From NCBI GenBank assembly GCA_026261815.1, contig JAMPIT010000511.1, positions 2,899,001 to 2,963,000 of the forward strand: a stretch of DNA of 64,000 bases, written 5' to 3'. Positions 1 to 26,053 of the stretch are shown here, piece by piece. The translations under genes were made by a program, and so were the position numbers. Under the pieces are notes generated by a model. That model had not been told where the DNA came from and did not search any database. It worked only from the letters and a program-made list of their open reading frames with translations. Origin of the DNA: Monarcha castaneiventris obscurior. Lineage: Eukaryota; Chordata; Aves; Passeriformes; Monarchidae. Every line of letters starts with the position of its first letter. The stretch's first letter is position 1.

Positions 1-1308
1 GTGTCTCGGGGGCCAACCGAGCAGCAACTCTGCTGCCTGTGGGTGCTGTGAGCAGGGCCGGTGACGTGAGGCTGTACTTGGCACCCAGTGGCTCCTTGCA
101 GGGAGCTGCGGCGCGTGTGGCCACGGCTCCCGGCGCTGAGTCACGGCCACAGCACATCCGGCCAGCCCCGCATCCCTCCTGCCCACGGCCGGGCCCCCCG
201 CGCACCCCTCACTCCCCTGTCCAGGGAGGGAGCAGCCCTGGGAACCCAGGGACACTCCCTGTACCTGCCACTGTCCCACTCCAGCTGCAGATTTAGGGGC
301 GGGAAGGTCACTGGGGTCAAGGCACGTTTGGGTGGTGGTGACACTCATCCCCTCTGTCACCCTGTCCTGGCCAAGCTGTGCTGGGGTCAGGGAGCCCCCC
401 GCAGCCCCATTACGGTCTCAAGCCCCTGAGCTCTCAGCTGAACCACTCCTCCCATGGCCAAAGGCATCTCCAGCCTTCCCTGTCCACAGCTGCTGCATGG
501 GGAGGGGTTGGGAATGGCCCAGACCCCCGTGTCCTTCTCCTGACCCTGCAAACGAGGTGAGCAGGGGCATGGGGGTGTGGGAGGTCGGTGTCCCCTGAGC
601 TGGCCCAGCTGCATTGACTGGGAACCGCTGCTCAGGCACATGGACAGGGGGATTTGGGGTGTGGAATGTCCTGGGGTTGCAGGGTGGCAGGGGAGCGAGT
701 TGGTGCATCCTGACCCGGCGCAGCAGCTGCAGGGGGGACCCCTGCCAAGGCGAGAGCCAGGGCCGAGGGGGATTCCCCCTGTGGAAGTGGCTCCAAGCAC
801 AGGTGCCCACCCCTGCCATCCATCCGTGCTGGCCCCTGTGGGCTCACGGGACTCGGCCCTTGGCTCTGCCCCCATCTCCTGGCGGATGCAGCTCCCCAGG
901 TGCCCCCGCAGCCCAAACCGCTGAGCCTCGGCTGCATCCTGGAACATCCCATCACCCACAAGGGCAGGCAACCCCCAAACACCAGCCTGAGCACCCTCCA
1001 GCCGCCTAGGGACTCTGGGTCCAGGGCACACAGGCTGGCCACGGTGCTGTCTTGTCCTCCAAACACGGGGATCTCCGTGCTCCGGGGGCCAAATGGGCAG
1101 TGCCTCCACCTGCGCTGCACCAGGCAGAGGCCGAAGACGGGACTGGGGCTGGGCAGGAGGTGCTCCCCACAGCCGCTGCCCGGTCTCGGGTTTCACCACG
1201 GCCACTGGCTCCTTCCAGGATCTCACTGGAGCTGGAGGGCACGGCCGGGAGAGGGACAGCCCCGTGCCCCGTGCCCCCAGCCCCACACCGCCCGCCTCTC
1301 CCTCCCAA

Positions 1309-1380
1309 CCCTACATACTTCTTCATATGCCCATATGGAGCCGGCCGGCCTTATGGAATGTTAAGAAGTATGTATTTTTG
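1309..1380 (+). ncRNA. mir-1b: mir-1b microRNA precursor, copy a
   Basis: A hairpin whose 5' arm TACATACTTCTTCATATGCC pairs with a 3' arm holding the miR-1 family mature sequence at 1354-1375. Seed bases 2-8 are GGAATGT. The mature form has TTAAG where canonical miR-1 has TAAAG, which is how I remember avian miR-1b. The loop is GC rich (around 1338-1350). miR-1 is a muscle microRNA that represses growth and non-muscle transcripts in heart and skeletal muscle. The precursor sits about 600 bases upstream of the ISRE of the interferon gene in the same orientation, and 70 bases upstream of the mir-133c hairpin. This copy has the normal 5' U. Confidence 0.95.
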
Positions 1381-1446
1381 GGCTGGGACCCCCACGCCGG
1401 GAGCCCCCATCACCAGCACGGTCCAGACGGCGCCTCCGGAGAGACG

Positions 1447-1530
1447 ATGCGTCCCTGGGGCTGGTAAAAAGGAACCAGATCAACTTGCAACTGGATTTGG
1501 TCCCCTTCAACCAGCTGCAGCGGCGCATGA
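1447..1530 (+). ncRNA. mir-133c: mir-133c microRNA precursor, copy a
   Basis: Hairpin with 5' arm CTGGTAAAAAGGAACCAGAT (from 1461) and mature miR-133 family strand at 1496-1517, beginning TTTGGTCCCCTTCAACC and ending CAGCTG followed by C. miR-133 acts with miR-1 in muscle. The two mature strands start only 142 bases apart, so one primary transcript must carry both. The mature strand is identical to the second copy at 19469-19490. Confidence 0.95.
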
Positions 1531-1972
1531 GCTACGGCACCCGCTGCTCCTCACCGCCCCGGCCCAGGGCGCTGCCACCGTCCTGCCCTGAGCGGGATCG
1601 GGGTCAAGAGTGGGTGCAGGGAGCGGGAGAAAGGGGGGGTGCGGAGTGGGGCTTTGGCTGGCTTTTTGAGGCTGCCAGGTGGAGAGGAGGCAGGCGGAGC
1701 GGCTTCAACTACGATTTCCAGACTTGCCCGAGGGCGTCGCCAAAACCGCGGAGTTTCAGCAGTCGGGAAACGCCCCGTGAAGCCACAGGAGCCCCGGCAC
1801 AGGCGTGAGGAGCCCCCAACCCGGAGTGTCCTTCCCCTCCAGCCCCTGCACCTCCCGTCCGAGGCGGTCGGGGCGAAAGGGCTCCCTGCGGGGACAGCCC
1901 CAGGCTCCGACCCCGAAGACGGGCGAGCTCCAGCCCCGCTCTAGCAGAGGCGGCAACATCAAGAGGTAATGA

Positions 1973-1984
1973 GAAAGTGAAACT
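1973..1984 (+). promoter_or_regulatory. ISRE of mini-ISG12 copy 1
   Basis: GAAAGTGAAACT is a perfect match to the interferon-stimulated response element GAAANNGAAAC(T/C), the ISGF3/IRF binding site. It lies 449 bases upstream of the start codon and recurs at the same place in all six units, so it is the likely interferon switch. I see no clear TATA box between it and the first exon. Confidence 0.85.
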
Positions 1985-2421
1985 TGGCAAGCGGTTTTCG
2001 AAGTCTCGAAAATTCCCTGTCCCGACAGTCACTCTGCGTCGACCTTCTCGGCAGCCATTTGCCCCTCAGACAGAGCACAGGCTGGTGGTGTGGGGTGCTG
2101 CGCTCCCGCGGTGGGTGTCTGGGGACAGCGCCCTTTCTCTGAGGGGGGACGATAACGGGGGGCTGCTCACCTCGCTGCACCGGCGGAGCAGCCACGGAGC
2201 CCTGGGCCGGGCAGGAGCCTGGGCGGAGGTTGAGGGGTCTCTGCTTCTGTGGGGTGGCCGGGGGCTCCTGGAGGGGAGAGGGGTGGCTGGGGGCGTTCGT
2301 GCAGGGCAGCAAAGCCCAGCCGGCCTCACCCGCTGCCCACGGAAGAAAGTTTTGTTCTCTTTCCCGGAAGGACCAGGCTCACAGAGGACCCGGAGCAGCT
2401 CTCGCTCCCCGCCAGCCTACC

Positions 2422-4750
<2,329 letters not shown>

Positions 4751-4953
4751 CTCTGCCCTGCAAGCAGCAGCCGATGCCATGCTCTCTGCAGGAAGAACTC
4801 CCAATGGGCAATGCAAGTCAACACAAGCAAGTTTCCTTCCTTCCAAGCAGCCTGATTTGTCTTCACTGTCAGGCACTGGAAAGCCCACTCAGACACCCAC
4901 ATGCCCCTTTAAAAGATTTGGATTTCCTTGAGCAATAATCTATTGAAATCTTT

Positions 4954-4959
4954 AATGAA
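4954..4959 (+). terminator. Degenerate poly(A) signal, copy 1 (AATGAA)
   Basis: At the place where copies 3-5 have TTTAATAAAAGTGC, copies 1 and 2 have TTTAATGAAAGTGC. AATGAA is a weak hexamer, and the upstream AATAAATGC of copies 3 and 4 is also changed (AATAATC). 3'-end formation may be inefficient here. Confidence 0.6.
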
Positions 4960-5817
4960 AGTGCATTATCGATCTGTGTGTGTGGTGAGCTTGGTGTGTG
5001 TCGTGGCTGAGGTACCTGCCCAGCACCAGGGGATTTGCCGTGCTCCAGGAAGGGATTGCAGCAGGCAGCATCTCCAGCCTTGCTCCCTCTCCCCTGCACA
5101 GTGAGGGGCTGACCCTCACTGAACCCTGACAGCCCTGCCAGACCCTGGAACACCGACAGTGCTACAGCAAATCCTCACGGCAGCATCACGCTGCACTGCA
5201 GGGCCGACACAGCCCCAGGGCTTAAGTGGGTGCATCTCTGCAGCGTCGGGACTCAGGACACCCACTCAGTTTGATTTGAGGTGGGACAGGGGTGCTGGTC
5301 CAGCCAGACACGCTCTGCCCCACCACTGTTGCTGGGCTGGGGACTTGTCTTGGGTCCTGGGAGCCATGTCTGGGATCCTCAGGGCCAGATCATTGAGACC
5401 GCCCATGCGGGAGCTGCTGGGGTGCTGGCAGAGCATCCTGGGGGGACCATGGCTGTGTCATGCTGTGCCCCACAGAAAGGTTTGGTGTCTCGGGGGCCAA
5501 CCGAGCAGCGACTCTGCTGCCTGTGGGTGCTGTGAGCAGGGCCGGTGACGTGAGGCTGTACTTGGCACCCAGTGGCTCCTTGCAGGGAGCTGTGGCGCGT
5601 GTGGCCACGGCTCCCGGCGCTGAGTCACGGCCACAGCACATCCGGCCAGCCCCGCGTCCCTCCTGCCCACGGCCGGGCCCCCCGCGCACCCCTCACTCCC
5701 CTGTCCAGGGAGGGAGCAGCCCTGGGAACTCAGGGACACTCCCCGTACCTGCCACTGTCCCGCTCCAGCTGCAGATTCAGGGGCGGGAAGGTCGCTGGGG
5801 TCAAGGCACGTTTGGGT

Positions 5818-6090
5818 GCGGGTACACCCTCCGTAGTGTGGACTTCGACGGCACTCCCCGATCCACTGGTGGTAACTCCTGCTTTTTCTCTCTGTCTTCC
5901 CTCTCTCTCTCTGTGTCCCCGCCTCCATTCCTTTTCCATTTTCCTTCCTCCTTCTCTGTCTTTTCTAGCCCTTTTTAGTAGGGTAAATTCTTTTTTGTTG
6001 TTGTTGTTTTCATTATCAATCAATTTCATTATCAATAAACACTTTTCAGATACACTTTTGTCTCGGTTGACTTCACTTCGTTCCAGACCA
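5818..6090 (+). mobile_element. 3' remnant of LTR-like segment, unit 2
   Basis: It starts GCGGGTACACCCTCC, equal to unit 4 from about 14584, joined directly to spacer sequence that in unit 4 lies at about 13200, so about 1.4 kb has been deleted. It keeps AATAAA at 6034-6039 and the following GTTGACTTCACTTCGTT. Confidence 0.6.
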
Positions 6091-6235
6091 TCTATTTTGA
6101 AAGGTTCCTCGCATTTCCCCACAGTGGAACGCAGCAGGCTCCCTGCGGGGATACCCCCAGGGTCCGACCCTCTGGGGATGAGGGAGCCCCAGCCTCGCTC
6201 CAGCAGAGACAGCAACATCAAGACTTAATGAGAAT

Positions 6236-6247
6236 GAAAGTGAAACT
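6236..6247 (+). promoter_or_regulatory. ISRE of mini-ISG12 copy 2
   Basis: GAAAGTGAAACT, perfect ISRE, 443 bases upstream of the start codon. The promoter region around it (TCCAGCAGAGACAGCAACAT) matches the other units, although the upstream flank here is LTR-derived and not miRNA-linked. Confidence 0.85.
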
Positions 6248-6689
6248 CAACTATCAAGCAATTTCTCATAAATTACCTGTCCCGACATTCCCTGTCAGGA
6301 TCTTTCCTGCATTGCTTTGACCCTCAGAGCACAGTACACTCAGCACAGGCTGGTGGTGTGGGGTGCTGCGCTCCCGCGGTGGGTGTCTGGGGACAGCGCC
6401 CTTTCTCTGAGGGGGGACGATAACGGGGGGCTGCTCACCTCGCTGCACCGGCGGAGCAGCCACGGAGCCCTGGGCCGGGCAGGAGCCTGGGCGGAGGTTG
6501 AGGGGTCTCTGCTTCTGTGGGGTGGCCGGGGGCTCCTGGAGGGGAGAGGGGTGGCTGGGGGCGTTCGTGCAGGGCAGCAAAGCCCTGCCGGCCTCACCCG
6601 CTGCCCACGGAAGAAAGTTTTGTTCTCTTTCCCGGAAGGACCAGGCTCACAGAGGACCCGGAGCAGCTCTCGCTCCCCGCCAGCCTACC

Positions 6690-7322
6690 ATGGGTAAGTT
6701 GGGTAGCTCGTGGGGTGGGGGGCACGGGCCCTGCAAGGGGACAGCACGAGGGACACGGGGACTCTGTGCTTTGCTCCCTCTGCCCTCTCCTCCGGGCTGT
6801 GGGGGCAGCGGGGCCGTTCCCGTCGCCGGTCCCGTTCCCGGGCGTCTGCAGGGCTGAAGGAGGGTGGGGCTGGGAGAGCTGCTGCTGCCACCGGGCCCCT
6901 GCCCTGCCCTGCCCGGCACAGGGCGCTGGGCTCCAGCCGGGAGGAGCTTTAGTGCCCGCACTTCTGCCCTTCTGTCGTTTTCCTTCTTAGGTGCCGGTAT
7001 AATCACTGCTGCATTCTTCCTTGGAATCATCATTGGAGCTACAATTGTAGGTGAGCGTCTGTCACGGGCGGAGCAGTACTCGGGTTCACTTTGGGAGCTG
7101 CTGAGAGGGAAGGGGCAGCCCTGGCCTCTGCCTGGAATTCTGCCTGCAAGTGCTGCTGCAGCCCTGCACACTGTTCCTCTCCTGCCGGCCATGGGGTGTT
7201 GTTAAGATCCGATTATTAGGGTGCTTTAGAAATCCCTGTGCCTGAATTAAGGTGCAAACGAGACCATACACCAGTCAACAGTATGGATTTTTTTTTACGA
7301 TAAATGTGAGAGAGAGAGAGTG

Positions 7323-7421
<99 letters not shown>

Positions 7422-8990
7422 AGAGAAAGAAAGAAAGAAAGAAGAGAAAGAAAGAAAGAAAGAAAGAAAGAGGAAGAAAGAAAGAAAGAAAGAAAGAAGA
7501 AAGAAAGAAGTAAAAAGAAATAGAGAATAGGTATGGGGGATGGAAAGAAGGTGACAGGGACAGAATAAGGAAAATATCACCACTCCATGGATCCCAGCGA
7601 TGCTCCATTGATCCTCTGCAGGTGGTCTTCTTGGTAGTGCAGGTCCCTCCAAAAGCATGGAATCTGCTGGGTTAATATACGCTCAGGCCATGTAGGAAAG
7701 TCCAGGCACGTCCCTGGTGGGGGGGGGGGGGGGGCAGTTTGCCATTGTCTCTTAAAACAGACTCCAGGTTTGTTGCATCACATGCAGTCCTGCAGTGCAA
7801 GGCCTCAGGAATGGCTCTGGGGGGCACTTGGGAGGTCCTTGATGGATTATGACACCCCCCCAGCTGCTTCCCACACGAATGTCCCCTGGATGCAGCCTTC
7901 CCAGAGTTGGGGGTTCCGCAGCTGGGCCAGTTGTGTAACAGGGAGGATAGGTGTTCACTGTCCCTGAGCAGGGGTTACACCTGAAACCTCCTCCCCCTGC
8001 CGCCTCGTTTCAGGAGGGAGTCTGTGTAAACCTGGCTTCTGTGGGCTGTGGTCTCCCCCACCCCAAATTCAGCCGGGGATGATTCGTAGCACGGCTGCTG
8101 GGTTTGGCTCACATTCTTTTGTTTGTTTACTTGTTTATTTCTCCTTGGGCCTGAGGTTGATGAAATAATGGATCTTCCCTTTATATAATCTCAGTAGTTT
8201 TACTTACAGTCCAAAGTTCTTCAAGGAGGTTTCCATGGTTGTAGCTTCTTTAAAACATTCTATCAATGTTTGAGGCGTGAACTATTTTCAGCCTCTGACA
8301 GAGGTCCCCGTCCCTGCACCCCCAGCCCTCACTCCCCACTCTGGTCCCTGGGTCCTTTTGGGGAGGCCGGTTCTGGTGCTGGTGGCAGGGGGAGAAGTGG
8401 GTCACAGAGAGAACCCTAACGCTGCTCTGTCCTCCCTGCAGCAGTGGTAAATGGTGGGCCAATTCGCAGCGGTGCAAAGAGGTCTCGCAATGGGTCTTTT
8501 ATCTTCTGTTTTGACATTGGTGAGTGGGGAAGACAGGGGAGCTGGGCTGTGCTGGGTGGGAACACGGGGTTGTACCCTGGGCTTACTCTGAAGCCAAACC
8601 AGCCCTTTAACTCCTCGCTGGTGGGAGTGTCCCAAAACTGTGGGAAAGGGATCAATCCCCAATGTGGTGGGAAGAGTCAGGACCTGCTGGGGCAGAGGTC
8701 AAGGCTGAGGGCCTCAGGGGCGGTGCAGGCAGGTGACTGCTCTGTGACAAGAACAACACTTGTGTCCACTGGCAGCAGTGGCCAGAGGCAGACAAGGACA
8801 GCAGAAAGGGGTTGGGTGTGCTCAGGGAGCAGAGCTCGCTGCAGGCCACCTCCCTGGCACAGTCTGGGGAGACCCTTGTTGGGGAGACATTGTTGGCTGT
8901 CCCTGCCTTGTGCTCGTCCCTCAGCAGGCAGCCTCAATGCCTCTGGGACATCACACTTCTGTCTTTGCAGGGGGAAAACAAAAGGCCTGA
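6690..8990 (+). CDS. Mini-ISG12 (IFI6/IFI27-like) gene, copy 2
   Basis: Predicted exons are 6690-6693, 6991-7050, 8442-8519 and 8971-8990 (TGA), giving 53 residues, with the same phases and sites as copy 1. Exon 2 is identical to copy 1 in protein. Exon 3 differs at several residues (for example PIRSG for PICGG, SRNG for SRSG, FCF for FYF), mixed changes that keep the frame. The tail is GGKQKA. It is probably a hydrophobic N-terminal membrane segment followed by a basic loop and a second hydrophobic patch. Copy 2 shares with copy 1 the 1.1-kb intron insertion and the weak poly(A) hexamer, so the two are the most recent duplicates in this part. Function is inferred only from the ISG12 context. 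Confidence 0.7.
7197..8300 (-). mobile_element. LTR-like insertion in intron 2 of copy 2
   Basis: Same element and same boundaries as in unit 1 (TGTTGTTAAG ... CTCTGACA). It is slightly shorter because of the GAAA tract, so it was present before these two units separated. Confidence 0.5.
7322..7509 (+). repeat. Interrupted (GAAA)n microsatellite
   Basis: Equivalent of the tract at 3056-3268 but with GAAGAG, GAGGAA and similar interruptions. The pure run is about 100 bases. Confidence 0.95.
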
Positions 8991-9193
8991 CTCTGCCCTG
9001 CGAGCAGCAGCCGATGCCATGCTCTCCACAGGAAGAACTCCCAATGGCCAATGCAAGTCAACACAAGCAAGTTTCCTTCCTTCCAAGCAGCCTGATTTGT
9101 CTTCACTGTCAGGCGCTGGAAAGCCCACTCAGACACCCACATGCCCCTTTAAACGATTTGGATTTCCTTGAGCAATAATCTATTGAAATCTTT

Positions 9194-9199
9194 AATGAA
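9194..9199 (+). terminator. Degenerate poly(A) signal, copy 2 (AATGAA)
   Basis: Same TTTAATGAAAGTGC variant as copy 1. No AATAAA lies nearby downstream. Confidence 0.6.
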
Positions 9200-10057
9200 A
9201 GTGCATTATCGATCTGTGTGTGTGGTGAGCTTGGTGTGTGTCGTGGCTGAGGTACCTGCCCAGCACCAGGGGATTTGCCGTGCTCCAGGAAGGGATTGCA
9301 GCAGGCAGCATCCCCAGCCTTGCTCCCTCTCCCCTGCACAGCGAGGGGCTGGCTCCCACTGAACCCTGACAGCCCTGCCAGACCCTGGAACACCGACAGT
9401 GCTACAGCAAATCCTCACGGCAGCATCACGCTGCACTGCAGGGCCGACACAGCCCCAGGGGTTAAGTGGGTGCATCTCTGCAGCGTCGGGACTCAGGACA
9501 CCCACTCAGTTTGATTTGGGGTGGGACAGGGGTGCTGGTCCAGCCAGACACACTCTGCCCCACCACTGTTGCTGGGCTGGGGACTTGTCTTGGGTCCTGG
9601 GAGCCGTGTCTGGGATCCTCAGGGCCAGATCATAGAGACCGCCCATGTGGGAGCTGCTGGGGTGCTGGCAGAGCATCCTGGGGGGACCATGGCTGTGTCA
9701 TGCTGTGCCCCACAGAAAGGTTTGGTGTCTCGGGGGCCAACCGAGCAGCGACTCTGCTGCCTGTGGGTGCTGTGAGCAGGGCTGGTGACGTGAGGCTGTA
9801 CTTGGCACCCAGTGGCTCCTTGCAGGGAGCTGCGGCGCGTGTGGCCACGGCTCCCGGCGCTGAGTCACGGCCACAGCACATCCGGCCAGCCCCGCGTCCC
9901 TCCTGCCCACGGCCGGGCCCCCCGCGCACCCCTCACTCCCCTGTCCAGGGAGGGAGCAGCCCTGGGAACTCAGGGACACTCCCCGTACCTGCCACTGTCC
10001 CGCTCCAGCTGCAGATTCAGGGGTGGGAAGGTCGCTGGGGTCAAGGCACGTTTGGGT

Positions 10058-10330
10058 GCGGGTACACCCTCCGCAGTGTGGACTTCGACGGCACTCCCCG
10101 ATCCACTGGTGGTAACTCCTGCTTTTTCTCTCTGTCTTCCCTCTCTCTCTCTGTGTCCCCGCCTCCATTCCTTTTCCATTTTCCTTCCTCCTTCTCTGTC
10201 TTTTCTAGCCCTTTTTAGTAGGGTAAATTCTTTTTCGTTGTTGTTGTTTTCATTATCAATCAATTTCATTATCAATAAACACTTTTCAGATACACTTTTG
10301 TCTCGGTTGACTTCACTGCGTTCCAGACCA
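10058..10330 (+). mobile_element. 3' remnant of LTR-like segment, unit 3
   Basis: Same deletion junction as unit 2 (GGGTGCGGGTACACCC), so the deletion predates the duplication of these units. Confidence 0.6.
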
Positions 10331-10475
10331 TCTATTTTGAAGAGTTCCTCGCATTTCCCCACAGTGGAACGCGGCAGGCTCCCTGCGGGGATACCCCCAG
10401 GGTCCGACCCTCTGGGGATGAGGGAGCCCCAGCCTCGCTCCAGCAGAGACAGCAACATCAAGACTTAATGAGAAT

Positions 10476-10487
10476 GAAAGTGAAACT
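10476..10487 (+). promoter_or_regulatory. ISRE of mini-ISG12 copy 3
   Basis: GAAAGTGAAACT, perfect ISRE, 443 bases upstream of the start codon. Confidence 0.85.
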
Positions 10488-10929
10488 CAACTATCAAGCA
10501 ATTTCTCATAAATTACCTGTCCCGACATTCCCTGTCAGGATCTTTCCTGCGTTGCTTTGACCCTCAGAGCACAGTACACTCAGCACAGGCTGGTGGTGTG
10601 GGGTGCTGCGCTCCCGCGGTGGGTGTCTGGGGACAGCGCCCTTTCTCTGAGGGGGGACGATAACGGGGGGCTGCTCACCTCGCTGCACCGGCGGAGCAGC
10701 CACGGAGCCCTGGGTCGGGCAGGAGCCTGGGCGGAGGTTGGGGGGTCTCTGCTTCTGTGGGGTGGCCGGGGGCTCCTGGAGGGGAGAGGGGTGGCTGGGG
10801 GCGTTCGTGCAGGGCAGCAAAGCCCAGCCGGCCTCACCCGCTGCCCACGGAAGAAAGTTTTGTTCTCTTTCCCGGAAGGACCAGGCTCACAGAGGACCCG
10901 GAGCAGCTCTCGCTCCCCGCCAGCCTACC

Positions 10930-12118
10930 ATGGGTAAGTTGGGTAGCTCGTGGGATCGGGGGCACGGGCCCTGCAAGGGGACAGCACGAGGAACACGGGG
11001 ACTCTGTGCTTTGCTCCCTCTGCCCTCTCCTCCGGGCTGCGGGGGCAGCGGGGCCGTTCCCGTCGCCGGTCCCGTTCCCGGGCGTCTGCAGGGCTGAAGG
11101 AGGGTGGGGCTGGGAGAGCTGCTGCTGCCACCGGGCCCCTGCCCTGCCCTGCCCGGCACAGGGCGCTGGGCTCCAGCCGGGAGGAGCTTTAGTGCCCACA
11201 CTCCTGCCCTTCTGTCGTTTTCCTTCTTAGGTGCCGGTATAATCACTGCTGCATTCTTCCTTGGAATCATCATTGGAGCTACAATTGTAGGTGAGCGTCT
11301 GTCACGGGCTGAGCAGCGCTCGGGTTCACTTTGGGAGCTGCTGAGAGGGAAGGGGCAGCCCTGGCCTCTGCCTGGAATTCTGCCTGCAAGTGCTGCTGCA
11401 GCCCTGCACACTGTTCCTCTCCTGCCGGCCATGGGCTGTCCCCGTCCCTGCACCCCCAGCCCTCGCTGCTCGCTCTGGTCCCTGGGTCCTTTTGGGAAGG
11501 CCGGTTCTGGTGCTGGTGGCAGGGGGAGATGTGGGTCACGGAGAGCACCCTAACGCTGCTCTGTCCTCCCTGCAGCAGCGACAAGTGGTATGCCGGTGTG
11601 CGTCGGTGCAGCGGGGATTACCAAGACCAAGGCTCTTGCCTTCGCTTTCACAGTCGGTGAGCGGGGAGGGCAGGGGAGCTGGGCTGTGCTGGGAGGGAAC
11701 ACGGGGTTGTACCCTGGGCTTGCTCTAAAACCAAACCAGTTCTTTAACACCTCACTGGTCCAAATCTCCCCTAAATGTGGGGAAGGGATCAATCCCTGAT
11801 GTGGTGGGAAGAGTCAGGACCTGCTGGGGTAGAGGTCAAGGCTGAGGGCCTCAGGGGCCGTGCAGGCAGGTGACAGTTCTGAGGCAAGATCTCCCGTGTC
11901 CACTGGCAGCAGTGGCCAGAGACAGAAAGGAACAGTGGGCAGGGGCTGGGTTTGCTCAGGAGCAGAACTCGCTGCAGGCCACCTCCTTGGCACAGTCCAG
12001 GGAGACCCTTGCATCTCCCTGCCCAGGAGAAGTCCTTGGCTGTCCCTGCCTTGTGCTTGTCCCTTAGCAGGCAGCCTCGATGCCTCTGGGACATCAAACG
12101 TTTGTCTTTGCAGGGTAA
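10930..12118 (+). CDS. Mini-ISG12 (IFI6/IFI27-like) gene, copy 3
   Basis: Predicted exons are 10930-10933, 11231-11290, 11576-11656 and 12114-12118, giving 49 residues. The stop TAA comes one codon after the last junction. Exon 2 is the same as in copies 1 and 2. Exon 3 (81 bases) is of the other class and contains SGMPVCVGAAGITKTKA then a hydrophobic end AFAFTVG. GMPVCVGA matches GIPVCIGA of the full ISG12 gene at 28849-28872, which ties the mini genes to the family. The rest of the ISG12 repeat ([11 protein letters not shown]...) is missing from the exon. Two consensus AATAAA signals follow. This copy is a hybrid of the unit 1/2 and unit 4/5 types. Confidence 0.72.
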
Positions 12119-12335
12119 AAACAAAAGGCCCGACTGCCCTGCGAGCAGCAGCCGATGCCAGGCTCTTCACACGAAGAGCTCCCAATGGCCAATGCAAGCC
12201 AACACAAGCAAGCTTCCTTCCTTCCAAGCAGCCTGATTTGTCTTCAGTGTCAGGCGCTGGAAAGCCCCCGCTGACCCCCATCTGCGCCTTTAAAAGATTT
12301 GGATTTCCTTGAGCAATAAATGCTATGAAAGCTTT

Positions 12336-12341
12336 AATAAA
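12336..12341 (+). terminator. Poly(A) signal, copy 3
   Basis: AATAAA in TTTAATAAAAGTGCATTG. A second AATAAA lies at 12315-12320. The GTGTGTGTGG stretch just downstream (about 12355) is a typical GU-rich downstream element. Confidence 0.8.
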
Positions 12342-13589
12342 AGTGCATTGCACACGTGTGTGTGTGGTGGAGTTTGGTGTGCGTCGTGGCTGAGGTGCCC
12401 GCCCAGCACCGGGGGATTTGCCGTGCTCCAGGAAGGGATTGCAGCAGGCAGCGTCTCCAGCCTTGCTCCCTCTCCCCTGCACAGCGAGGGGCTGGCTCCC
12501 ACTGAACCCTGACGGCCCTGCCAGACCCTGGAACACCGGCAGTGCTGCAGCAAATCCTCACGGCAGCATCACGCTGCACTGCAGGGCCGACACAGCCCCA
12601 GGGGTTAAGTGGGTGCATCTCTGCTGTGTCTGGCCTCAGGACACCCACTCAGTTTGATTTGGGGTGGGACAGGGGTGCTGGTCCAGCCAGACACGCTCTG
12701 CCCCACCACTGCTGCTGTGCTGGGGACTTGTCTTGGGTCCTGGGAGCCGTGTCTGGGATCCTCAGGGCCAGATCATTGGGACCGCCCATGTGGGAGCTGC
12801 TGGGGTGCTGGCAGAGCATCCTGGGGGGACCATGGCTGTGTCATGCTGTGCCCCACGGGAAGGTTTAGTGTCTCGGGGGGCCAACCGAGCAGCGACTCTG
12901 CTGCCTGTGGGTGCTGTGAGCAGGGCTGGTGATGTCAGGCTGTACTCGGCACCCAGTGGCTCCTTGCAGGGAGCTGCGGCGCGTGTGGCCACGGCTCCCG
13001 GCGCTGAGTCATGGCCACAGCACATCCGGCCAGCCCCGTGTCCCTCCTGCCCACGGCCGGGCCCCCCGTGCACCCCTCACTCCCCTGTCCAGGGAGGGAG
13101 CAGCCCTGGGAACTCAGGGACACTCCCCGTACCTGCCACTGTCCCGCTCCAGCTGCAGATTCAGGGGTGGGAAGGTCGCTGGGGTCAAGGCACGTTTGGG
13201 TGGTGGTGACACTCATCCCCTCTGTCACCCTGTCCTGGCCAAGCTGTGCTGGGGTCAGGGAGCCCCCCGCAGCCCCGTTAGGGTCTCAAGCCCCAGAGCT
13301 CTCAGCTGAACCACTCCTCCCATGGCCAAAGGCATCTCCAGCCTTCCCTGTCCACAGCTGCTGCGTGGGAGGGGTTGGGAATGGCCCAGACCCCCGTGTC
13401 CTTCTCCTGACCCTGCAAACGAGGTGAGCAGGGGCATGCGAGTGTGGGAGGTTGGTGCCCCCCGAGCTGGCCCAGCTGCATTGACCGGGAACCACTGCTC
13501 AGGCACACAGACAGGGGGATTTGGGCTGTGGAATGTCCTGGGGGTTGCAGGGTGGCAGGGGAGCGAGTTGGTGCATCCTGTCCCAGTTG

Positions 13590-13613
13590 CAGCAGCAGCA
13601 GCAGCAGCAGCAG
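13590..13613 (+). repeat. (CAG)8 run, variable between units
   Basis: Eight CAG units here, six at the matching place in unit 6 (about 23060), four in unit 5 (about 18673) and a broken pair in unit 1 (about 720). It lies in spacer with no supported coding frame. Confidence 0.9.
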
Positions 13614-13808
13614 GGGGGACCCCTGCCAAGGCGAGAGCCAGGGCCGAGGGGGATTCCCCCTGTGGAAGTGGCTCCAAGCACAGGTGCCCACCCCTGCCAT
13701 CCATCCGTGCTGGCCCCTGTGGGCTCACGGGACTCGGCCCTTGGCTCTGCCCCCATCTCCTCGCAGATGCAGCTCCTCAGGTGCCCCCACAGCCCAAACT
13801 GCTGAGCC

Positions 13809-14877
13809 ATTTTAGTTTTGATTTGTCTCAACACTGGTTGTCAGAGGCATGTGGAGAAGGGGTGCACATGTGCCACGTGCAGGAGGAAGCCTTGTCTCTG
13901 GGAGACTTTGCCTGGCAACCACTTCCCATCTCACATGGGACAGGCAGTCAGCAGGGGAACACCAAAGAGACTGTACCCTCCAGAGAGGCTTCTCCAGTCA
14001 GATGGCAAAAGGTCTCCACCAAGGTACTGCAGTGGAAGGTTGGACTGGGCCAATGGTCTCCTGCCAGCTGGCAGAGGAGACAGGGGGCATAAAAAGTAAC
14101 TGCACCACAAGCTCTGGGGGGCTTCTGAGACTTGCTTTTTGGCTGGGGGCTTTTTTGAGCGGGGCGGGGGGTTTGTGCTTTTGCTTTTGCGGCTTGGTGA
14201 CTCTGGGTCTGGGGGCCTTTGGGTCTCGTGTTTTTGCTTTGCCTCCAGCCTGCCGAGCTTCTGTGCCTCTTTGCTCTGGCCCTAGCCTGCTTTTTGTCCT
14301 TTTTGCCCTGGTTCCAGTCTGCCTTTTGGCTCTTCTGCCCTCGCTGCCTCTTGCTCGCCCTCGTGTCTCTCCTGCCTCCCTGTGTCCCTGACCAACACCC
14401 TGCCGCTTCACCCGTGTGTTCCTGCCTGAGCCACCTGCGTCCAACCCTTCCCGCTCCGATCCAGTCCGCAGCCGCCATTCCCGCCGTGACCTTGCCCAGG
14501 GTCCCACACCTCCTGCCCAAGAGGCCACTCACTCACCTCCTGCCCAGTCATCCGTGGCTGCAGGAGCCGTCTGCAGGCAGGCAGCGGGTACACCCTCCGT
14601 AGTGTGGACTTCGACGACACTCCCCGATCCACTGGTGGTAACTCCTGCTTTTTCTCTCTGTCCCCCCTCTCTCTCTCTCTGTCCCCCGCCTCCATTCCTT
14701 TTCCGTTTTCCTTCCTCCTTCTCTGTCTTTTCTAGCCCTCTTTAGTAGGGTAAATTCTTTTTCATTGTTGGTGTTTTCATTAGCAATAAACGCTTTTCAG
14801 ATGCACTGTTTTTGCGGTTGACTTCACTTCGTTCTATTTTGAAGAGTTCCTCGCATTTCCCCACAGTGGAACGCGGC
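13809..14877 (+). mobile_element. LTR-like segment replacing the miRNA cluster, unit 4
   Basis: Unit 4 departs from the miRNA-type units after GCTGAGCC and rejoins at GGCTCCCTGCGGGGA. In between are CCAAT (14050-14054), a TATA-like CATAAAAAG (14089-14097), a pyrimidine-rich stretch and AATAAA (14785-14790). This order of CCAAT, TATA and poly(A) signal is what an LTR would show, but I could not define TG/CA ends or a target duplication. The swap removes about 980 bases present in unit 5, so it is a replacement and not a simple insertion. Confidence 0.55.
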
Positions 14878-14982
14878 AGGCTCCCTGCGGGGATACCCCC
14901 AGGGTCCGACCCTCTGGGGACGAGGGAGCCCCAGCCTCGCTCCAGCAGAGGCAGCAACATCAAGAGTTAATGTTCTCACTCT

Positions 14983-14994
14983 CAAAGTGAAACT
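14983..14994 (+). promoter_or_regulatory. Mutated ISRE of copy 4
   Basis: Reads CAAAGTGAAACT: the first G of the first GAAA half is C. The bases before it (TTCTCACTCT) also differ from the AATGAGAATG of other LTR-type units. The second half GAAACT is intact. ISGF3 binding is probably weakened. Confidence 0.7.
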
Positions 14995-15439
14995 CAGCTA
15001 TCAAGCAATTTCTCATAAATTACCCGTCCCGTGGTTTCCTGTCAGGATCTTTCCTGCGTCACTTTGACCCTCAGAGCACAGTACACTCAGCACAGGCTGG
15101 TGGTGTGGGGTGCTGCGCTCCCGCGGTGGGTGTCTGGGGATAGCGCCCTTTCCCTGAGGGGGGGGACGATAACGGGGGGCTGCTCACCTCGCTGCACCGG
15201 CGGAGCAGCCACAGAGCCCTGGGCCGGGCAGGAGCCTGGGCGGAGGTTGGGGGGGTCTCTGCTTCTGTGGGGTGGCCGGGGGCTCCTGGAGGGGAGAGGG
15301 GTGGCTGGGGGCGTTCGTGCAGGGCAGCAAAGCCCTGCCGGCCTCACCCGCTGCCCACGGAAGAAAGTTTTGTTCTCTTTCCCGGAAGGACCAGGCTCAC
15401 AGAGGACCCGGAGCAGCTCTCGCTCCCGGCCAGCCTACC

Positions 15440-16627
15440 ATGGGTAAGTTGGGTGGCTCGTGGGATCGGGGGCACGGGCCCTGCAAGGGGACAGCATGAG
15501 GGACACGGGGACTCTGTGCTTTGCTCCCTCTGCCCTCTCCTCCGGGCTGCGGGGGCAGCGGGGCCGTTCCCGCCGCCGGTCCCGTTCCCGGGCGTCTGCA
15601 GGGCTGAAGGAGGGTGGGGCTGGGAGAGCTGCTGCTGCCACCGGGCCCCTGCCCTGCCCTGCCCGGCACAGGGCGCTGGGCTCCAGCCGGGAGGAGCTTT
15701 AGTGCCCGCACTCCTGCCCTTCTGTCATTTTCCTTCTTAGGTGCCGGTACAGTCACTGTTGCAATCGTCGCTGTGCTCATCATTGGAGCTGCATTTGCAG
15801 GTGAGCGTCTGTCACGGGCGGAGCAGCGCTCGGGTTCGCTTTAGGAGCTGCTGAGAGGGAAGGGGCAGCACTGGCCGCTGCCTGGAATTCTGCCTGCAAG
15901 TGCTGCTGCAGCCCTGCACACTGTTCCTCTCCTGCCGGCCATGGGCTGTCCCCGTCCCTGCACCCCCAGCCCTCGCTGCTCGCTCTGGTCCCTGGGTCCT
16001 TTTGGGAAGGCCGGTTCTGGTGCTGGTGGCAGGGGGAGATGTGGGTCACGGAGAGCACCCTAACGCTGCTCTGTCCTCCCTGCAGCAGCGACAAGTGGTA
16101 TGCCGGTGTGCGTCGGTGCAGCGGCGATTACCAAGACCAAGGCTCTTGCCTTCGCTTTCACAGTCGGTGAGCGGGGAGGGCAGGGGAGCTGGGCTGTGCT
16201 GGGAGGGAACACGGGGTTGTACCCTGGGCTTGCTCTAAAGCCAAACCAGTTCTTTAACACCTCACTGGTCCAAATCTCCCCTAAATGTGGGGAAGGGATC
16301 AATCCCTGATGTGGTGGGAAGAGTCAGGACCTGCTGGGGTAGAGGTCAAGGCTGAGGGCCTCAGGGGCCGTGCAGGCGGGTGACTGTTCTGAGGCAAGAT
16401 CCCTGTGTCCACTGGCAGCAGTGGCCAGAGACAGAAAGGAACAGTGGGCAGGGGCTGGGTTTGCTCAGGAGCAGAACTCGCTGCAGGCCACCTCCTTGGC
16501 ACAGTCCAGGGAGACCCTTGCATCTCCCTGCCCAGGAGAAGTCCTTGGCTGTCCCTGCCTTGTGCTTGTCCCTTAGCAGGCAGCCTCGATGCCTCTGGGA
16601 CATCAAACGTTTGTCTTTGCAGGGTAA
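15440..16627 (+). CDS. Mini-ISG12 (IFI6/IFI27-like) gene, copy 4
   Basis: Predicted exons are 15440-15443, 15741-15800, 16086-16166 and 16623-16627 (TAA), giving 49 residues. Exon 2 is diverged from copies 1-3 (VTVAIVAVLIIGAAFA) but keeps length, phase and hydrophobicity, a sign of selection on character more than on exact sequence. Exon 3 is SGMPVCVGAAAITKTKA followed by a hydrophobic end. Intron 2 is short (285 bases) with no insertion. The promoter ISRE is mutated. Two AATAAA signals follow. Confidence 0.72.
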
Positions 16628-16844
16628 AAACAAAAGGCCCGACTGCCCTGCGAGCAGCAGCCGATGCCAGGCTCTTCACACGAAGAGCTCCCAATGGCCA
16701 ATGCAAGCCAACACAAGCAAGTTTCCTTCCTTCCAAGCAGCCTGATTTGTCTTCAGTGTCAGGCGCTGGAAAGCCCCCGCTGACCCCCATCTGCGCCTTT
16801 AAAAGATTTGGATTTCCTTGAGCAATAAATGCTATGAAAGCTTT

Positions 16845-16850
16845 AATAAA
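16845..16850 (+). terminator. Poly(A) signal, copy 4
   Basis: AATAAA, with a second at 16824-16829 and a GTGTGTGTGG element downstream. Confidence 0.8.
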
Positions 16851-17961
16851 AGTGCGTTGCACACGTGTGTGTGTGGTGGAGCTTGGTGTGCGTCGTGGCT
16901 GAGGTGCCCGCCCAGCACCGGGGGATTTGCCGTGCTCCAGGAAGGGATTGCAGCAGGCAGCGTCTCCAGCCTTGCTCCCTCTCCCCTGCACAGCGAGGGG
17001 CTGGCTCCCACTGAACCCTGACAGCCCTGCCAGACCCTGGAACACCGGCAGTGCTGCAGCAAATCCTCACGGCAGCATCACGCTGCACTGCAGGGCCGAC
17101 ACAGCCCCAGGGGTTAAGTGGGTGCATTTCTGCTGTGTCTGGCCTCAGGACACCCACTCAGTTTGATTTGGGGTGGGACAGGGGTGCTGGTCCAGCCAGA
17201 CACGCTCTGCCCCACCACTGCTGCTGTGCTGGGGACTTGTCTTGGGTCCTGGGAGCCGCGTCTGGGATCCTCAGGGCCAGATCATAGAGACCGCCCATGT
17301 GGGAGCTGCTGGGGTGCTGGCTGAGCATCCTGGGGGGACCATGGCTGTGTCATGCTGTGCCCCACAGAAAGGTTTGGTGTCTCGGGGGCCAACCGAGCAG
17401 CGACTCTGCTGCCTGTGGGTGCTGTGAGCAGGGCTGGTGATGTCAGGCTGTACTCGGCACCCAGTGGCTCCTTGCAGGGAGCTGCGGCGCGTGTGGCCAC
17501 GGCTCCCGGCGCTGAGTCACGGCCACAGCACATCCGGCCAGCCCCGCGTCCCTCCTGCCCACGGCCGGGCCCCCCGTGCACCCCTCACTCCCCTGTCCAG
17601 GGAGGGAGCAGCCCTGGGAACTCAGGGACACTCCCCGTACCTGCCACTGTCCCGCTCCAGCTGCAGATTTAGGGGTGGGAAGGTCGCTGGGGTCAAGGCA
17701 CGTTTGGGTGGTGGTGACACTCATCCCCTCTGTCACCCTGTCCTGGCCAAGCTGTGCTGGGGTCAGGGAGCCCCCCGCAGCCCCGTTAGGGTCTCAAGCC
17801 CCAGAGCTCTCAGCTGAGCCACTTGTCCCATGGGCAAAGGCATCTCCAGCCTTCCCTGTCCACAGCTGCTGCATGGGGAGGGGTTGGGAATGGCCCAGAC
17901 CCCCGTGTCCTTCTCCTGGCCCTGCAAACGAGGTGAGCAGGGGCATGAGGGTGTGGGAGGT

Positions 17962-18532
17962 TGTACAGGGACAGGCTCCAAATGTGGCAGCTGTCTGTCA
18001 CTCTGACACCGCCTCCGACCCCGCCTCTGGGGAGGAAGACTCCTCCTGGGAGGAGGGTTCTGTGGGCAGCACAGAAGTCTAGTGTCAGCCCCTTCGTCTG
18101 GAAGGTTCTCCAAAAGGCGTCGTGTGGTTGGCTAACCCATGATTGATGTGTTCTGTAGACCCCCCCCGTTTTTCGATTTGTTCTCTGTTCGTGTCTCCCC
18201 CCTTTGTCTGATGTTCTATTGGTTTGCTATCCGGCGCCCCTCCCATTCTTGCCCCCCTTATGAGGCTGTGCACCCCGTCCCCCCCTCGGGATCTCCCCTG
18301 GACTTCTCCTCGGAGCCTGATCCTTACCCTACAATAAAGGAGTTCACGGGGACACCCCCTCTCGCAGCCCTTTGCCTCCTCGCCTTATTTGCGCCTTGCC
18401 TCTCCTCGTGAGGAGCCGCCCCTGTCTGCGGGAACCAGCCCTGCCTAACCCACGGCACCGAAGCCTGTTGAGGCGCCCAGGGTTCTCGGGCCGGCGTCCT
18501 ACGCTGAGGGCAGCTGGGACAGCCAGGCGACA
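17962..18532 (+). mobile_element. Solo LTR with 6-bp target duplication
   Basis: The element begins TGTACAGGG and ends GGCGACA, and is flanked by the direct repeat GGAGGT at 17956-17961 and 18533-18538. The empty site is seen in the matching place of units 1, 4 and 6 (GGGAGGT(T/C)GGTG). It has AATAAA at 18333-18338. A 6-bp duplication and TG/CA ends fit a retroviral LTR of the ERVK/alpharetrovirus type. No internal retroviral sequence remains. It inserted after the array formed, since only unit 5 has it. Confidence 0.88.
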
Positions 18533-19281
18533 GGAGGTCGGTGCCCCCCGAGCTGGCCCAGCTGCATTGACCGGGAACCACTGCTCAGGCACACGGACAG
18601 GGGGATTTGGGGTGTGGAATGTCCTGGGGTTGCAGGGTGGCAGGGGACCGAGTTGGTGCATCCTGACCCAGTGCAGCAGCAGCAGGGGGGACCCCTGCCA
18701 AGGCGAGAGCCAGGGCCGAGGGGGATTCCCCCTGTGGAAGTGGCTCCAAGCACAGGTGCCCACCCCTGCCATCCATCCGTGCTGGCCCCTGTGGGCTCAC
18801 GGGACTCGGCCCTTGGCTCTGCCCCCATCTCCTCGCAGATGCAGCTCCTCAGGTGCCCCCACAGCCCAAACCGCTGAGCCTCGGCTGCATCCTGGAGCAT
18901 CCCATCACCCACAAGGGCAGCCAACCCCCCCAAACACCAGCCTGAGCACCCTCCAGCCGCCTAGGGACTCTGGGTCCAGGGCACGCAGGCTGGCCACGGC
19001 TCTGTCTTGTCCTCCAGACACGGGGATCTCCGTGCTCCGGGGTGGCTGCGGGCACAGGGGGCCAAATGGGCAGTGCCTCCACCTGCGCTGCACCAGGCAG
19101 AGGCCGAAGACGGGACTGGGGCTGGGCAGGAGATGCTCCCCACAGCTGCTGCCCGGTCTCGGGTTTCACCACGGCCACTGGCTCCTTCCAGGATCTCACT
19201 GGAGCTGGAGGGCACGGCCGGGAGAGGGACAGCCCCGTGCCCCGCGCCCCCAGCCCCACACCGCCCGCCTCTCCCTCCCAA

Positions 19282-19353
19282 CCCTACATACTTCTTCATA
19301 TGCCCATATGGAGCCGGCCGGCCTTACGGAATGTTAAGAAGTATGTATTTTTG
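19282..19353 (+). ncRNA. mir-1b: mir-1b microRNA precursor, copy b (5' base changed)
   Basis: Second copy of the mir-1b hairpin, mature strand at 19327-19348. The only difference I see inside the hairpin is at the first mature base: C instead of T (TACGGAATG versus TATGGAATG at 1352-1360). Seed bases 2-8 (GGAATGT) are unchanged. The change turns an A-U pair at the end of the duplex into an A-C mismatch. Argonaute prefers a 5' U or A, so loading or 5' processing of this copy may differ. Confidence 0.93.
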
Positions 19354-19419
19354 GGCTGGGACCCCCACGCCGGGAGCCCCCATCACCAGCACGGTCCAGA
19401 CGGCGCCTCCGGATAGACG

Positions 19420-19503
19420 ATGCGTCCCTGGGGCTGGTAAAAAGGAACCAGATCAACTTGCAACTGGATTTGGTCCCCTTCAACCAGCTGCAGCGGCGCA
19501 TGA
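19420..19503 (+). ncRNA. mir-133c: mir-133c microRNA precursor, copy b
   Basis: Mature strand at 19469-19490, identical to copy a, with the same 5' arm CTGGTAAAAAGGAACCAGAT. The distance to mir-1b copy b is unchanged (142 bases between mature starts), so the pair was duplicated as one block with the interferon gene downstream. Confidence 0.95.
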
Positions 19504-19946: not shown

Positions 19947-19958
19947 GAAAGTGAAACT
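19947..19958 (+). promoter_or_regulatory. ISRE of mini-ISG12 copy 5
   Basis: GAAAGTGAAACT, perfect ISRE, 443 bases upstream of the ATG and about 445 bases downstream of the mir-133c hairpin. Confidence 0.85.
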
Positions 19959-20400
19959 CGTCAAGCGGCTTTCGAAAAGTCTCGAAAATTCCCTGTCCCG
20001 ACAGTCACTCTGCGTCGACCTTTTCGGCAGCCATTTGCCCCTCAGACACAGCACAGGCTGGGGGTGTGGGGTGCTGCGCTCCCGCGGTGGGTGTCTGGGG
20101 ACAGCGCCCTTTCTCTGAGGGCGGGACGATAACGGGGGGCTGCTCACCTCGCTGCACCGGCGGAGCAGCCACGGAGCCCTGGGCCGGGCAGGAGCCTGGG
20201 CGGAGGTTGGGGGGGGTCTCTGCTTTTGTGGGGTGGCCGGGGGCTCCTGGAGGGGAGAGGGGTGGCTGGGGGCGTTCGTGCAGGGCAGCAAAGCCCTGCC
20301 GGCCTCACCCGCTGCCCACGGAAGAAAGTTTTGTTCTCTTTCCCGGAAGGACCAGGCTCACAGAGGACCCGGAGCAGCTCTCGCTCCCGGCCAGCCTACC

Positions 20401-21590
20401 ATGCGTAAGTTGGGTGGCTCGTGGGGTGGGGGGCACGGGCCCTGCAAGGGGACAGCACGAGGGACACGGGCACTCTGTGACTCTGTGCTTTGCTCCCTCT
20501 GCCCTCTCCTCCGGGCTGTGGGGGCAGCGGGGCCGTTCCCGTCGCCGTTCCCGGGCGTCTGCAGGGCTGAAGGAGGGTGGGGCTGGGAGAGCTGCTGCTG
20601 CCACCGGGCCCCTGCCCTGCCCTGCCCGGCACAGGGCGCTGGGCTCCAGCCGGGAGGAGCTTTAGTGCCCACACTCCTGCCCTTCTGTCATTTTCCTTCT
20701 TAGGTGCCGGTGTAGTCGCTGTTGCAATCGTCGCTGTGCTCATCCTTGGAGCTACAGCTGCAGGTGAGCGTCTGTCACGGGCAGAGCTGCGCTCGGGGTC
20801 ACTTTGGGAGCTGCTGAGAGGGAAGGGGCAGCACTGGCCGCTGCCTGGAATTCTGCCTGCAAGTGCTGCTGCAGCCCTGCACACTGTTCCTCTCCTGCCG
20901 GCCATGGGCTGTCCCCGTCCCTGCACCCCCAGCCCTCGCTGCTCGCTCTGGTCCCTGGGTCCTTTTGGGGAGGCCGGTTCTGGTGCTGGTGGCAGGGGGA
21001 GAAGTGGGTCACGGAGAGCACCCTAACGCTGCTCTGTCCTCCCTGCAGCAGCGACAAGTGGTATGCCGGTGTGCGTCGGTGCAGCGGCGATTACCAAGAT
21101 GGCGGCTTTAGCCTTCACTTTCACAGTCGGTGAGCGGGGAGGGCAGGGGAGCTGGGCTGTGCTGGGAGGGAACACGGGGTTGTACCCTGGGCTTGCTCTA
21201 AAGCCAAACCAGTTCTTTAACACCTCACTGGTCCAAATCTCCCCTAAATGTGGGGAAGGGATCAATCCCTGATGTGGTGGGAAGAGTCAGGACCTGCTGG
21301 GGTAGAGGTCAAGGCTGAGGGCCTCAGGGGCCGTGCAGGCGGGTGACTGTTCTGAGGCAAGATCCCTGTGTCCACTGGCAGCAGTAGCCAGAGACAGAAA
21401 GGAACAGTGGGCAGGGGCTGGGTTTGCTCAGGAGCAGAACTCGCTGCAGGCCACCTCCTTGGCACAGTCCAGGGAGACCCTTGCATCTCCCTGCCCAGGA
21501 GAAGTCCTTGGCTGTCCCTGCCTTGTGCTTGTCCCTTAGCAGGCAGCCTCGATGCCTCTGGGACATCAAACGTTTGTCTTTGCAGGGTAA
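20401..21590 (+). CDS. Mini-ISG12 (IFI6/IFI27-like) gene, copy 5
   Basis: Predicted exons are 20401-20404, 20704-20763, 21049-21129 and 21586-21590 (TAA), giving 49 residues. The first exon ends ATGC instead of ATGG, so residue 2 changes from Gly to Arg and the base before the donor is no longer G, while the donor GTAAGT is intact. Exon 2 is VVAVAIVAVLILGATAA and exon 3 is SGMPVCVGAAAITKMAA plus a hydrophobic end. Loss of Gly2 and of G at -1 may lower splicing and would change any N-terminal modification. Confidence 0.7.
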
Positions 21591-21807
21591 AAACAAAAGG
21601 CCTGACGGCCCTGCGAGCAGCAGCCGATGCCATGCTCTTCACAGGAAGAGCTCCCAATGGCCAATGCAAGCCAACACAAGCAAGTTTCCTTCCTTCCAAG
21701 CAGCCTGATTTGTCTTCAATGTCAGGCGCTGGAAAGCCCCCGCTGACCCCCATCTGCGCCTTTAAAAGATTTGGATTTCCTTGAGCCATAAATGCTATGA
21801 AAGCTTT

Positions 21808-21813
21808 AATAAA
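21808..21813 (+). terminator. Poly(A) signal, copy 5
   Basis: AATAAA. The upstream second hexamer of copies 3 and 4 is here CATAAA. Confidence 0.8.
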
Positions 21814-24342: not shown

Positions 24343-24441
24343 GGCTCCCTGCGGGGATACCCCCAGGGTCCGACCCTCTGGGGATGGGGGAGGCCCAGCC
24401 TCGCTCCAGCAGAGACAGCAACATCAAGACTTAATGAGAAT

Positions 24442-24453: not shown

Positions 24454-24874
24454 CAACTATCAAGCAATTTCTCATAAATTACCTGTCCCGACATTCCCTG
24501 TCAGGATCTTTCCTGCATCGCTTTGACCCTCAGAGCACAGTACACACAGCACAGCCTGGTGGCGTGGGTGTCTGGGGACAGCGCCCTTTCTCTGAGGGGG
24601 GACGATAACGGGGGGCTGCTCACCTCGCTGCACCGGCGGAGCAGCCACGGAGCCCTGGGCCGGGCAGGAGCCTGGGCGGAGGTTGAGGGGTCTCTGCTTC
24701 TGTGGGGTGGCCGGGGGCTCCTGGAGGGGAGAGGGGTGGCTGGGGGCGTTCGTGCAGGGCAGCAAAGCCCTGCCGGCCTCACCCGCTGCCCACGGAAGAA
24801 AGTTTTGTTCTCTTTCCCGGAAGGACCAGGCTCACAGAGGACCCTGCGCAGCTCTCGCTCCCCGCCAGCCTACC

Positions 24875-25241: not shown

Positions 25242-25653
25242 GTGAGCGTCTGTCACGGGCTGAGCAGCGCTCGGGCTCACTTTGGGAGCTGCCGAGAGGG
25301 AAGGGGCAGCACTGACCACTGCCTGGAATTCTGCCTGCACGCGCTGCTGCAGCCCTGCACACTGTTCCTCTCCTGCCGGCCATGGGCTGTCCCCGTCCCT
25401 TCACCCCTAGCCCTTGCTCCCCACTCTGGTTCCTCTGCTCCCCTGCCTGGTCTTGGGCTTCACCAGGGCCACTGGCCCCCACCCAGGATAGTTTCGTTAT
25501 AAACTATGTTTGATTCACCTTGTGCTGGTGGCAGGTGACAGACTGGGTTGATAAGTGCTGTGTGTCCCGTACTCTGCCCCATGTGTGTCCTCAGGGCTCA
25601 CCCCGCACTCAGCTGAGTTTCAGTCTCTGTATTCTCTGTATTTAATTACCTCA

Positions 25654-25659
25654 AATAAA
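25654..25659 (+). terminator. Candidate poly(A) signal after unit 6
   Basis: AATAAA in TCAAATAAATGCC. The sequence before it (about 25505-25575) recurs near 28070-28140, so this is a segment shared within the locus. Whether it ends a transcript of unit 6 is inference. Confidence 0.4.
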
Positions 25660-26034: not shown

Positions 26035-26053
26035 ACAACCACAGGGTCTGTCC

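Follow-up and report, generated by a model that had tools for sequence, protein, structure and literature searches.

Two mir-1b/mir-133c pairs in an interferon-stimulated-gene-type array of Monarcha castaneiventris obscurior

Why should a muscle microRNA locus be present twice within an array of antiviral-type genes, and do its copy number and its transcription follow those of the array? We have studied these questions in a stretch of 64,000 nucleotides from the passerine bird Monarcha castaneiventris obscurior (assembly GCA_026261815.1, contig JAMPIT010000511.1, positions 2,899,001 to 2,963,000 of the forward strand; hereafter the window). Here two pairs of mir-1 and mir-133 hairpins, of the miR-1b and miR-133c types, stand among related units that carry interferon-stimulated response elements (ISREs). 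We consider it probable that an old avian mir-1b/mir-133c locus has been a passive hitchhiker in a mosaic array of ISG12/FAM14 type.

The hairpin pairs and the array units

Hairpins were called with Rfam cmscan, using the curated gathering thresholds of 45.6 bits for mir-1 (RF00103) and 55.5 bits for mir-133 (RF00446). The first pair comprises a mir-1 hairpin of the miR-1b type at 1304..1382 (60.0 bits) and a mir-133 hairpin of the miR-133c type at 1452..1523 (68.9 bits). The corresponding hairpins of the second pair are found at 19277..19355 (51.8 bits) and 19425..19496 (68.9 bits). All four are on the plus strand, and each mir-133 copy gives E = 7.7e-14. The four hairpins score above the gathering thresholds and thus belong to the mir-1 and mir-133 families; they are the sole threshold-level Rfam matches across the 64 kb. 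The folding of each hairpin was compared with that of 200 dinucleotide shuffles, and was better in every case, with z between −4.29 and −5.35. The mir-1 hairpins have minimum free energies of −40.8 and −36.7 kcal/mol for copies 1 and 2 (z = −5.35 and −4.30 respectively), and the first mir-133 hairpin has z = −4.29. The two mir-133 copies are identical at 72 of 72 positions, while the mir-1 copies have one difference, the T of copy 1 (position 1354) being replaced by C in copy 2 (position 19327). The 440-bp surroundings of the two pairs are 98.4% identical.

A blastn search with the hairpins (E ≤ 0.01) found no place in the window besides the two pairs, and a lax Rfam search (E ≤ 5) of positions 1-30000 found no additional mir-1 or mir-133 place. 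The lax search also returned minus-strand mir-1 and mir-133 matches, which we rejected as the mirror of the known hairpins, under the gathering score. Viral contigs scanned for 20 bases of miR-1b contained none.

The arrangement closely resembles the mir-1b/mir-133c cluster on chicken chromosome 23, where the two families are also arranged in this order and span 218 nt compared with 220 nt here (PMC2777939). In the chicken one such cluster is tabulated, whereas the Monarcha window holds two. A first-pass annotation of this DNA had stated that vertebrates normally have one such locus. This agrees with the single chicken mir-1b/mir-133c cluster, but not with the wider family, which is multi-locus, with mir-1a-1 on chicken chromosome 20, mir-1a-2 on chromosome 2 and mir-206 on chromosome 3 (PMC2777939).

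The first 30 kb of the window are mostly GC-rich and contain six related units on the plus strand, with exon 1 starting at 2371, 6639, 10879, 15389, 20350 and 24824; the window starts within this array. The exon models are our own predictions, made from exon anchors and splice sites. On these models units 1 (2371..4990, four exons) and 2 (6639..9230) have open reading frames (ORFs) of 53 aa, and units 3 (10879..12375), 4 (15389..16885) and 5 (20350..21850) have ORFs of 49 aa. Splice sites are intact in all five, and the 3′ ends of units 1, 2, 3 and 5 are approximate. Exons 1 and 2 of unit 6 lead into a complete ISG12/FAM14 gene (24824..29690, plus strand). A microRNA pair lies upstream of units 1 and 5, and of none of units 2, 3 and 4.

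The exact ISRE core, GAAAGTGAAAC, occurs at 1973 and 19947, downstream of microRNA pairs 1 and 2 respectively (1973..1983 and 19947..19957, plus strand; pattern GAAANNGAAAC). An exact core is found upstream of five of the six units, at 24442 in the case of unit 6, and unit 4 has an ISRE-like sequence with one mismatch at 14983. The Rfam matches, the folding and the exact ISRE cores together confirm the basic observation of the first-pass annotation, that of two mir-1b/mir-133c pairs on the same strand, each upstream of an ISRE.

Is this an array of interferon-stimulated genes (ISGs), as had also been stated? The joined exons of the last gene encode 171 aa that match PF06140 with 87.4 bits (cut-off 29.1) and E = 6.2e-25. 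In this domain, and in its upstream ISRE core, the gene resembles the ISG12/FAM14 family (IFI27L2, IFI6). Units 1 to 5 differ from the family in that their predicted products stop before the FAM14 body, at 49-53 aa. A Pfam scan of the products of units 1 and 4, two of the five, returned no match at E ≤ 0.1, and a word-based protein search with two of the five unit products, which is weak for queries so short, returned no homologue. The array is thus one of ISRE-bearing, ISG12/FAM14-related units, but units 1 to 5 as modelled are not complete ISG12 genes.

Spacers, promoter classes and the origin of the second pair

Alignment of the six visible spacers places the microRNA pair in two of them, spacers 1 and 5. 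Spacers 4 and 6 hold another segment, some 1.07 kb long, at the same position. In spacer 4 this extends over 13808..14879 and is long terminal repeat (LTR)-like by eye only; the segment at 23274..24343 in spacer 6 is the same by spacer alignment and blastn. Spacers 2 and 3 have shortened parts of it, at 5818-6137 and 10058-10377. The segment is rich in pyrimidines and has an AATAAA close to its 3′ end; where it came from may account for how the pair was lost in four spacers. No decayed mir-1 or mir-133 was detected in these four, either by blastn (word size 7, E ≤ 0.01) or by the lax Rfam search of 1-30000. With the pair in only two of the six spacers, the microRNAs do not rise and fall in number with the units, and the earlier proposal that microRNA copy number is coupled to ISG copy number is not supported in any tight form.

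The promoter segment begins a little 5′ of the ISRE and reaches into intron 1. Its six versions form two classes, which match the type of spacer. One class comprises the microRNA-bearing units 1 and 5, which are 2.7% apart. The promoter segments of units 2, 3, 4 and 6 are 1.2-4.5% apart internally, and 6.0-7.7% from those of units 1 and 5. With both of its bearers in one promoter class, the pair travels with the promoter block. The association goes no further: in exon 2, unit 1 matches units 2 and 3 exactly but has 15 of 60 sites different from unit 5. Within the 3′ spacer piece common to all six, I4 pairs with I5, and I2 with I3 (0.9% each). The array is mosaic.

Passive hitchhiking could have produced this arrangement. 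In the ancestral state a single mir-1b/mir-133c pair would have been located in the spacer that immediately precedes a gene of ISG12/FAM14 type. The promoter and 5′ region of that gene would have expanded via unequal crossing-over and gene conversion, carrying the pair along as passenger DNA, and the pair would have survived in two of the six visible spacers and been lost or replaced in the others. Both pairs would be transcribed in muscle as their own primary microRNA transcript, and not from the downstream ISG promoters. There would then be two identical sources of miR-133c, and for miR-1b a normal source together with a second one whose first base is altered and which probably gives less product or a product that is 5′-shifted. 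In one chicken muscle study miR-133c was represented by 1 and 0 reads, compared with 126 and 67 for miR-133a (PMC3107184). With miR-133c so nearly absent from chicken muscle a change in copy number may have little effect, which fits a locus that tolerates such change. The ZMYM-type gene in the right part of the window (see below) would also be in line with descent from the old avian locus, as ZMYM genes lie on human 1p34, in a region syntenic with chicken chromosome 23.

Some observations weigh against this reading. The hairpins have accumulated one substitution, where 4.0-4.4 are predicted from the flanks (P = 0.09 local, 0.07 overall). This low divergence is a hint of constraint, for which a pure passenger would have no need, although it does not suffice to claim it. 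There are five E-boxes in 580-1303 compared with 2.6 expected (P = 0.12), by which a muscle promoter is not demonstrated, and spacers 1 and 5 contain no match to MEF2 or to a strict CArG sequence. A relaxed CArG match at 18383 lies inside an inserted element, described below.

Could the second pair be an artefact of assembly? There would then be one locus per haplotype, and the second copy would be the other haplotype or a mis-joined repeat. The array is highly repetitive and runs off the left end of the window, and units 2 and 6 differ by 1.7% in the promoter segment, as would be expected from a duplicated two-unit block in which units 1-2 correspond to units 5-6. Against this, spacers 1 and 5 differ at 51 of 1861 aligned bases, and among the microRNA-bearing spacers a 571-bp insertion is present in spacer 5 only, the corresponding site being cleanly empty in spacers 1, 4 and 6. 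The bodies of units 1 and 5 are strongly different, with 34 of 78 sites changed in exon 3 in addition to the 15 of 60 in exon 2. Spacers 2 and 6 differ structurally, and the promoter segment of unit 2 resembles that of unit 3 (1.2% apart) more than that of unit 6. An artefact is thus unlikely, and the duplication of the microRNA pair within the array looks real. MicroRNA copy counts in bird assemblies hinge on the quality with which such arrays are assembled.

Interferon read-through and the altered second copy

Can interferon drive expression of the pairs? It had been suggested that read-through from an upstream ISG copy makes the microRNAs interferon-responsive, and couples the dose of these muscle microRNAs (myomiRs) to the antiviral array. 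In keeping with this, copy 2 lies on the same strand as unit 4 and downstream of its 3′ end. No AATAAA or ATTAAA occurs in the 1.3 kb before copy 1 (positions 1-1310), whose preceding unit is outside the window. Read-through to copy 2, however, would have to pass AATAAA sequences at 16824, 16845 and 18333, which lie between the last exon of unit 4 and the hairpins. In addition, the hairpins lie upstream of the ISRE and exon 1 of their own unit, with some 450 bp between their end and the ISRE core, and because of this they are probably outside the transcript of that unit.

Studies in the chicken bear on the same question. In favour of the suggestion, chicken IFI27L2 is among 51 interferon-regulated genes common to all three platforms in one study (PMC4974698); a chicken gene called IFI6 has been placed on chromosome 2 (PMC10687481). 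After infection with infectious bronchitis virus (IBV), miR-1b-3p was raised in DMV/1639 trachea at 4 days post-infection (adjusted P = 0.0496). By contrast, miR-133c-3p was lowered in three of four infected epithelial groups, as was miR-206 from chromosome 3, and miR-133b was lowered in all four (PMC11896067). In influenza miR-1b was raised in the trachea (ratio 2.16) and lowered in the lung (0.29), while in the trachea miR-1a increased about 9-fold (PMC2777939). The far larger rise of miR-1a, which is encoded on other chromosomes, suggests a changed content of muscle. These infection data are inconsistent, and would be better explained by muscle content or general shifts in myomiRs than by control through interferon.

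The 3′ exons of the array, as delimited, contain none of the five miR-1/miR-133 7-mers that were sought. A feedback loop of miR-1 and miR-133 acting on the array was dropped, there being no target 7-mers in these exons. With the hairpins 5′ of the unit promoter, three AATAAA sequences before copy 2 and inconsistent results from infected chickens, the proposal of interferon-responsive microRNAs finds no support, and we think it quite improbable.

What are the consequences of the single base change in mir-1 copy 2? The Rfam consensus at the substituted base is U, directly 5′ of GGAAUG; this 5′ U is kept by copy 1 and is C in copy 2. We take the substituted base to be the first of mature miR-1b. 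By family the hairpins are ordinary, scoring as they do above the curated cut-offs of RF00103 and RF00446; the differences are the altered base of copy 2, presumed to be the first of the mature strand, and the site within a tandem ISG-type array. The T to C change unpairs the apical stem, and the predicted stability falls from −40.8 to −36.7 kcal/mol. Loading of Argonaute in fly lysate is promoted by a 5′ U (PMC3127740), so that a weaker or 5′-shifted product is a likely effect of the change in copy 2.

Copy 2 also has an inserted element upstream. The 571-bp insertion in spacer 5 (17962..18532) begins TGT and ends ACA, thus having the TG...CA ends of an LTR, and has the same six bases on both sides as a target duplication. 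It includes the AATAAA at 18333. In the empty site of spacers 1, 4 and 6, 22 of 24 bases match the joined flanks. Such features are the hallmarks of a solo endogenous-retroviral LTR. The insertion ends 745 bp upstream of mir-1 copy 2, and could have added a stop or start signal for transcription near that copy.

Copy 2 might be thought to have gained a new role, the changed first base and a looser Dicer end leading to a different 5′ end and seed of miR-1b or a switch of arm, with the LTR-like element perhaps altering transcription. The sole hairpin substitution falls on what we take to be the first mature base, where the consensus is U; the fold of copy 2 is without its apical stem; Argonaute loading in fly lysate is, as noted, promoted by a 5′ U; and the insertion is in place upstream. 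Selection is not needed, however, to account for one among 51 substitutions in the aligned block, and loss of output is a simpler account; we regard a new role as very unlikely. Similarly remote is the broader idea that, with the myomiR pair as part of a copied promoter block, array turnover alters myomiR dose and has yielded a 5′-altered miR-1b gene behind an LTR-like element, and that interferon-driven transcription, by read-through or antisense from the ISG promoter, is able to raise or lower the pair.

We therefore return to passive hitchhiking as the probable explanation. Among the matches listed from one open-licence literature library, the titles and abstract starts held no duplicated mir-1b/mir-133c and no link between the pair and an ISG array. 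The novel features are the second copy, the altered first base of that copy, and the place of the locus within an immune-type array that is turning over. A conserved developmental microRNA locus would have been caught in this turnover, with one copy altered at a position where Argonaute loading is probably affected. If both copies are expressed, the dose of miR-133c could vary with the length of the array between birds, independent of the need of the muscle.

Exon divergence and neighbouring genes

In some pairs of units divergence is far higher in the coding exons than in the adjoining introns. Exon 2 of units 1 to 5 is found at 2724-2783, 6991-7050, 11231-11290, 15741-15800 and 20704-20763. 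Units 3 and 4 differ at 13 of 60 sites in exon 2, compared with 7 of 240 in the flanks (Fisher P = 6e-6), and units 4 and 5 at 7 of 60 compared with 6 of 240 (P = 0.006). In exon 3 the differences are 7 of 81 compared with 2 of 240 in the flanks for units 4 and 5 (P = 0.001), and 5 of 78 compared with 3 of 240 for units 1 and 2 (P = 0.02). There is no excess in other pairs: units 1, 2 and 3 have the same exon 2 sequence, and units 3 and 4 show a difference in exon 3 at 1 of 81 sites. The changes are mostly replacements (between units 3 and 4, exon 2 has 12 of them and one silent change), and the replacement bias taken alone is not significant in the three pairs (P = 0.07, 0.06 and 0.23). Positive selection on these tiny hydrophobic products is a candidate explanation of the pattern, with mosaic conversion as the alternative, and the exon divergence may merit more attention than the microRNAs.

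Two smaller features of the units were observed. In unit 5 the end of exon 1 (20399-20412) has ATGC, not ATGG; this changes residue 2 from G to R and keeps the splice donor. Long (GAAA)n arrays are present in introns of unit 1 (3050-3280) and unit 2 (a matching stretch near 7310-7630), and are a likely spot for both assembly error and unequal exchange.

Among the 120 listed of 631 protein matches to the 171-aa model of the complete FAM14 gene, the top three belong to Corvus and Catharus, and other birds come next. The gene has an N-terminal hydrophobic exon (25170-25241) and an acidic repeat exon (27327-27512). A 233-aa model that includes the acidic exon is 56% identical, over 255 columns, to a protein of Pseudopodoces humilis. 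As that protein aligns to the FAM14 model over most of its length, its annotation as 'TonB-like' is probably wrong. In an intron of the gene, at about 27530-27770, is a fragment resembling the 3′ end of what we presume to be an avian CR1 long interspersed nuclear element.

The DNA to the right of the array is lower in GC, and three of the six minus-strand ORFs scanned there have zf-FCS or DUF3504 matches above the Pfam cut-off. These matches indicate a ZMYM-type gene, which extends over 35308-53136 on the minus strand with MYM-type zinc fingers (zf-FCS) and DUF3504; the ZMYM4-specific model matched below its cut-off only.

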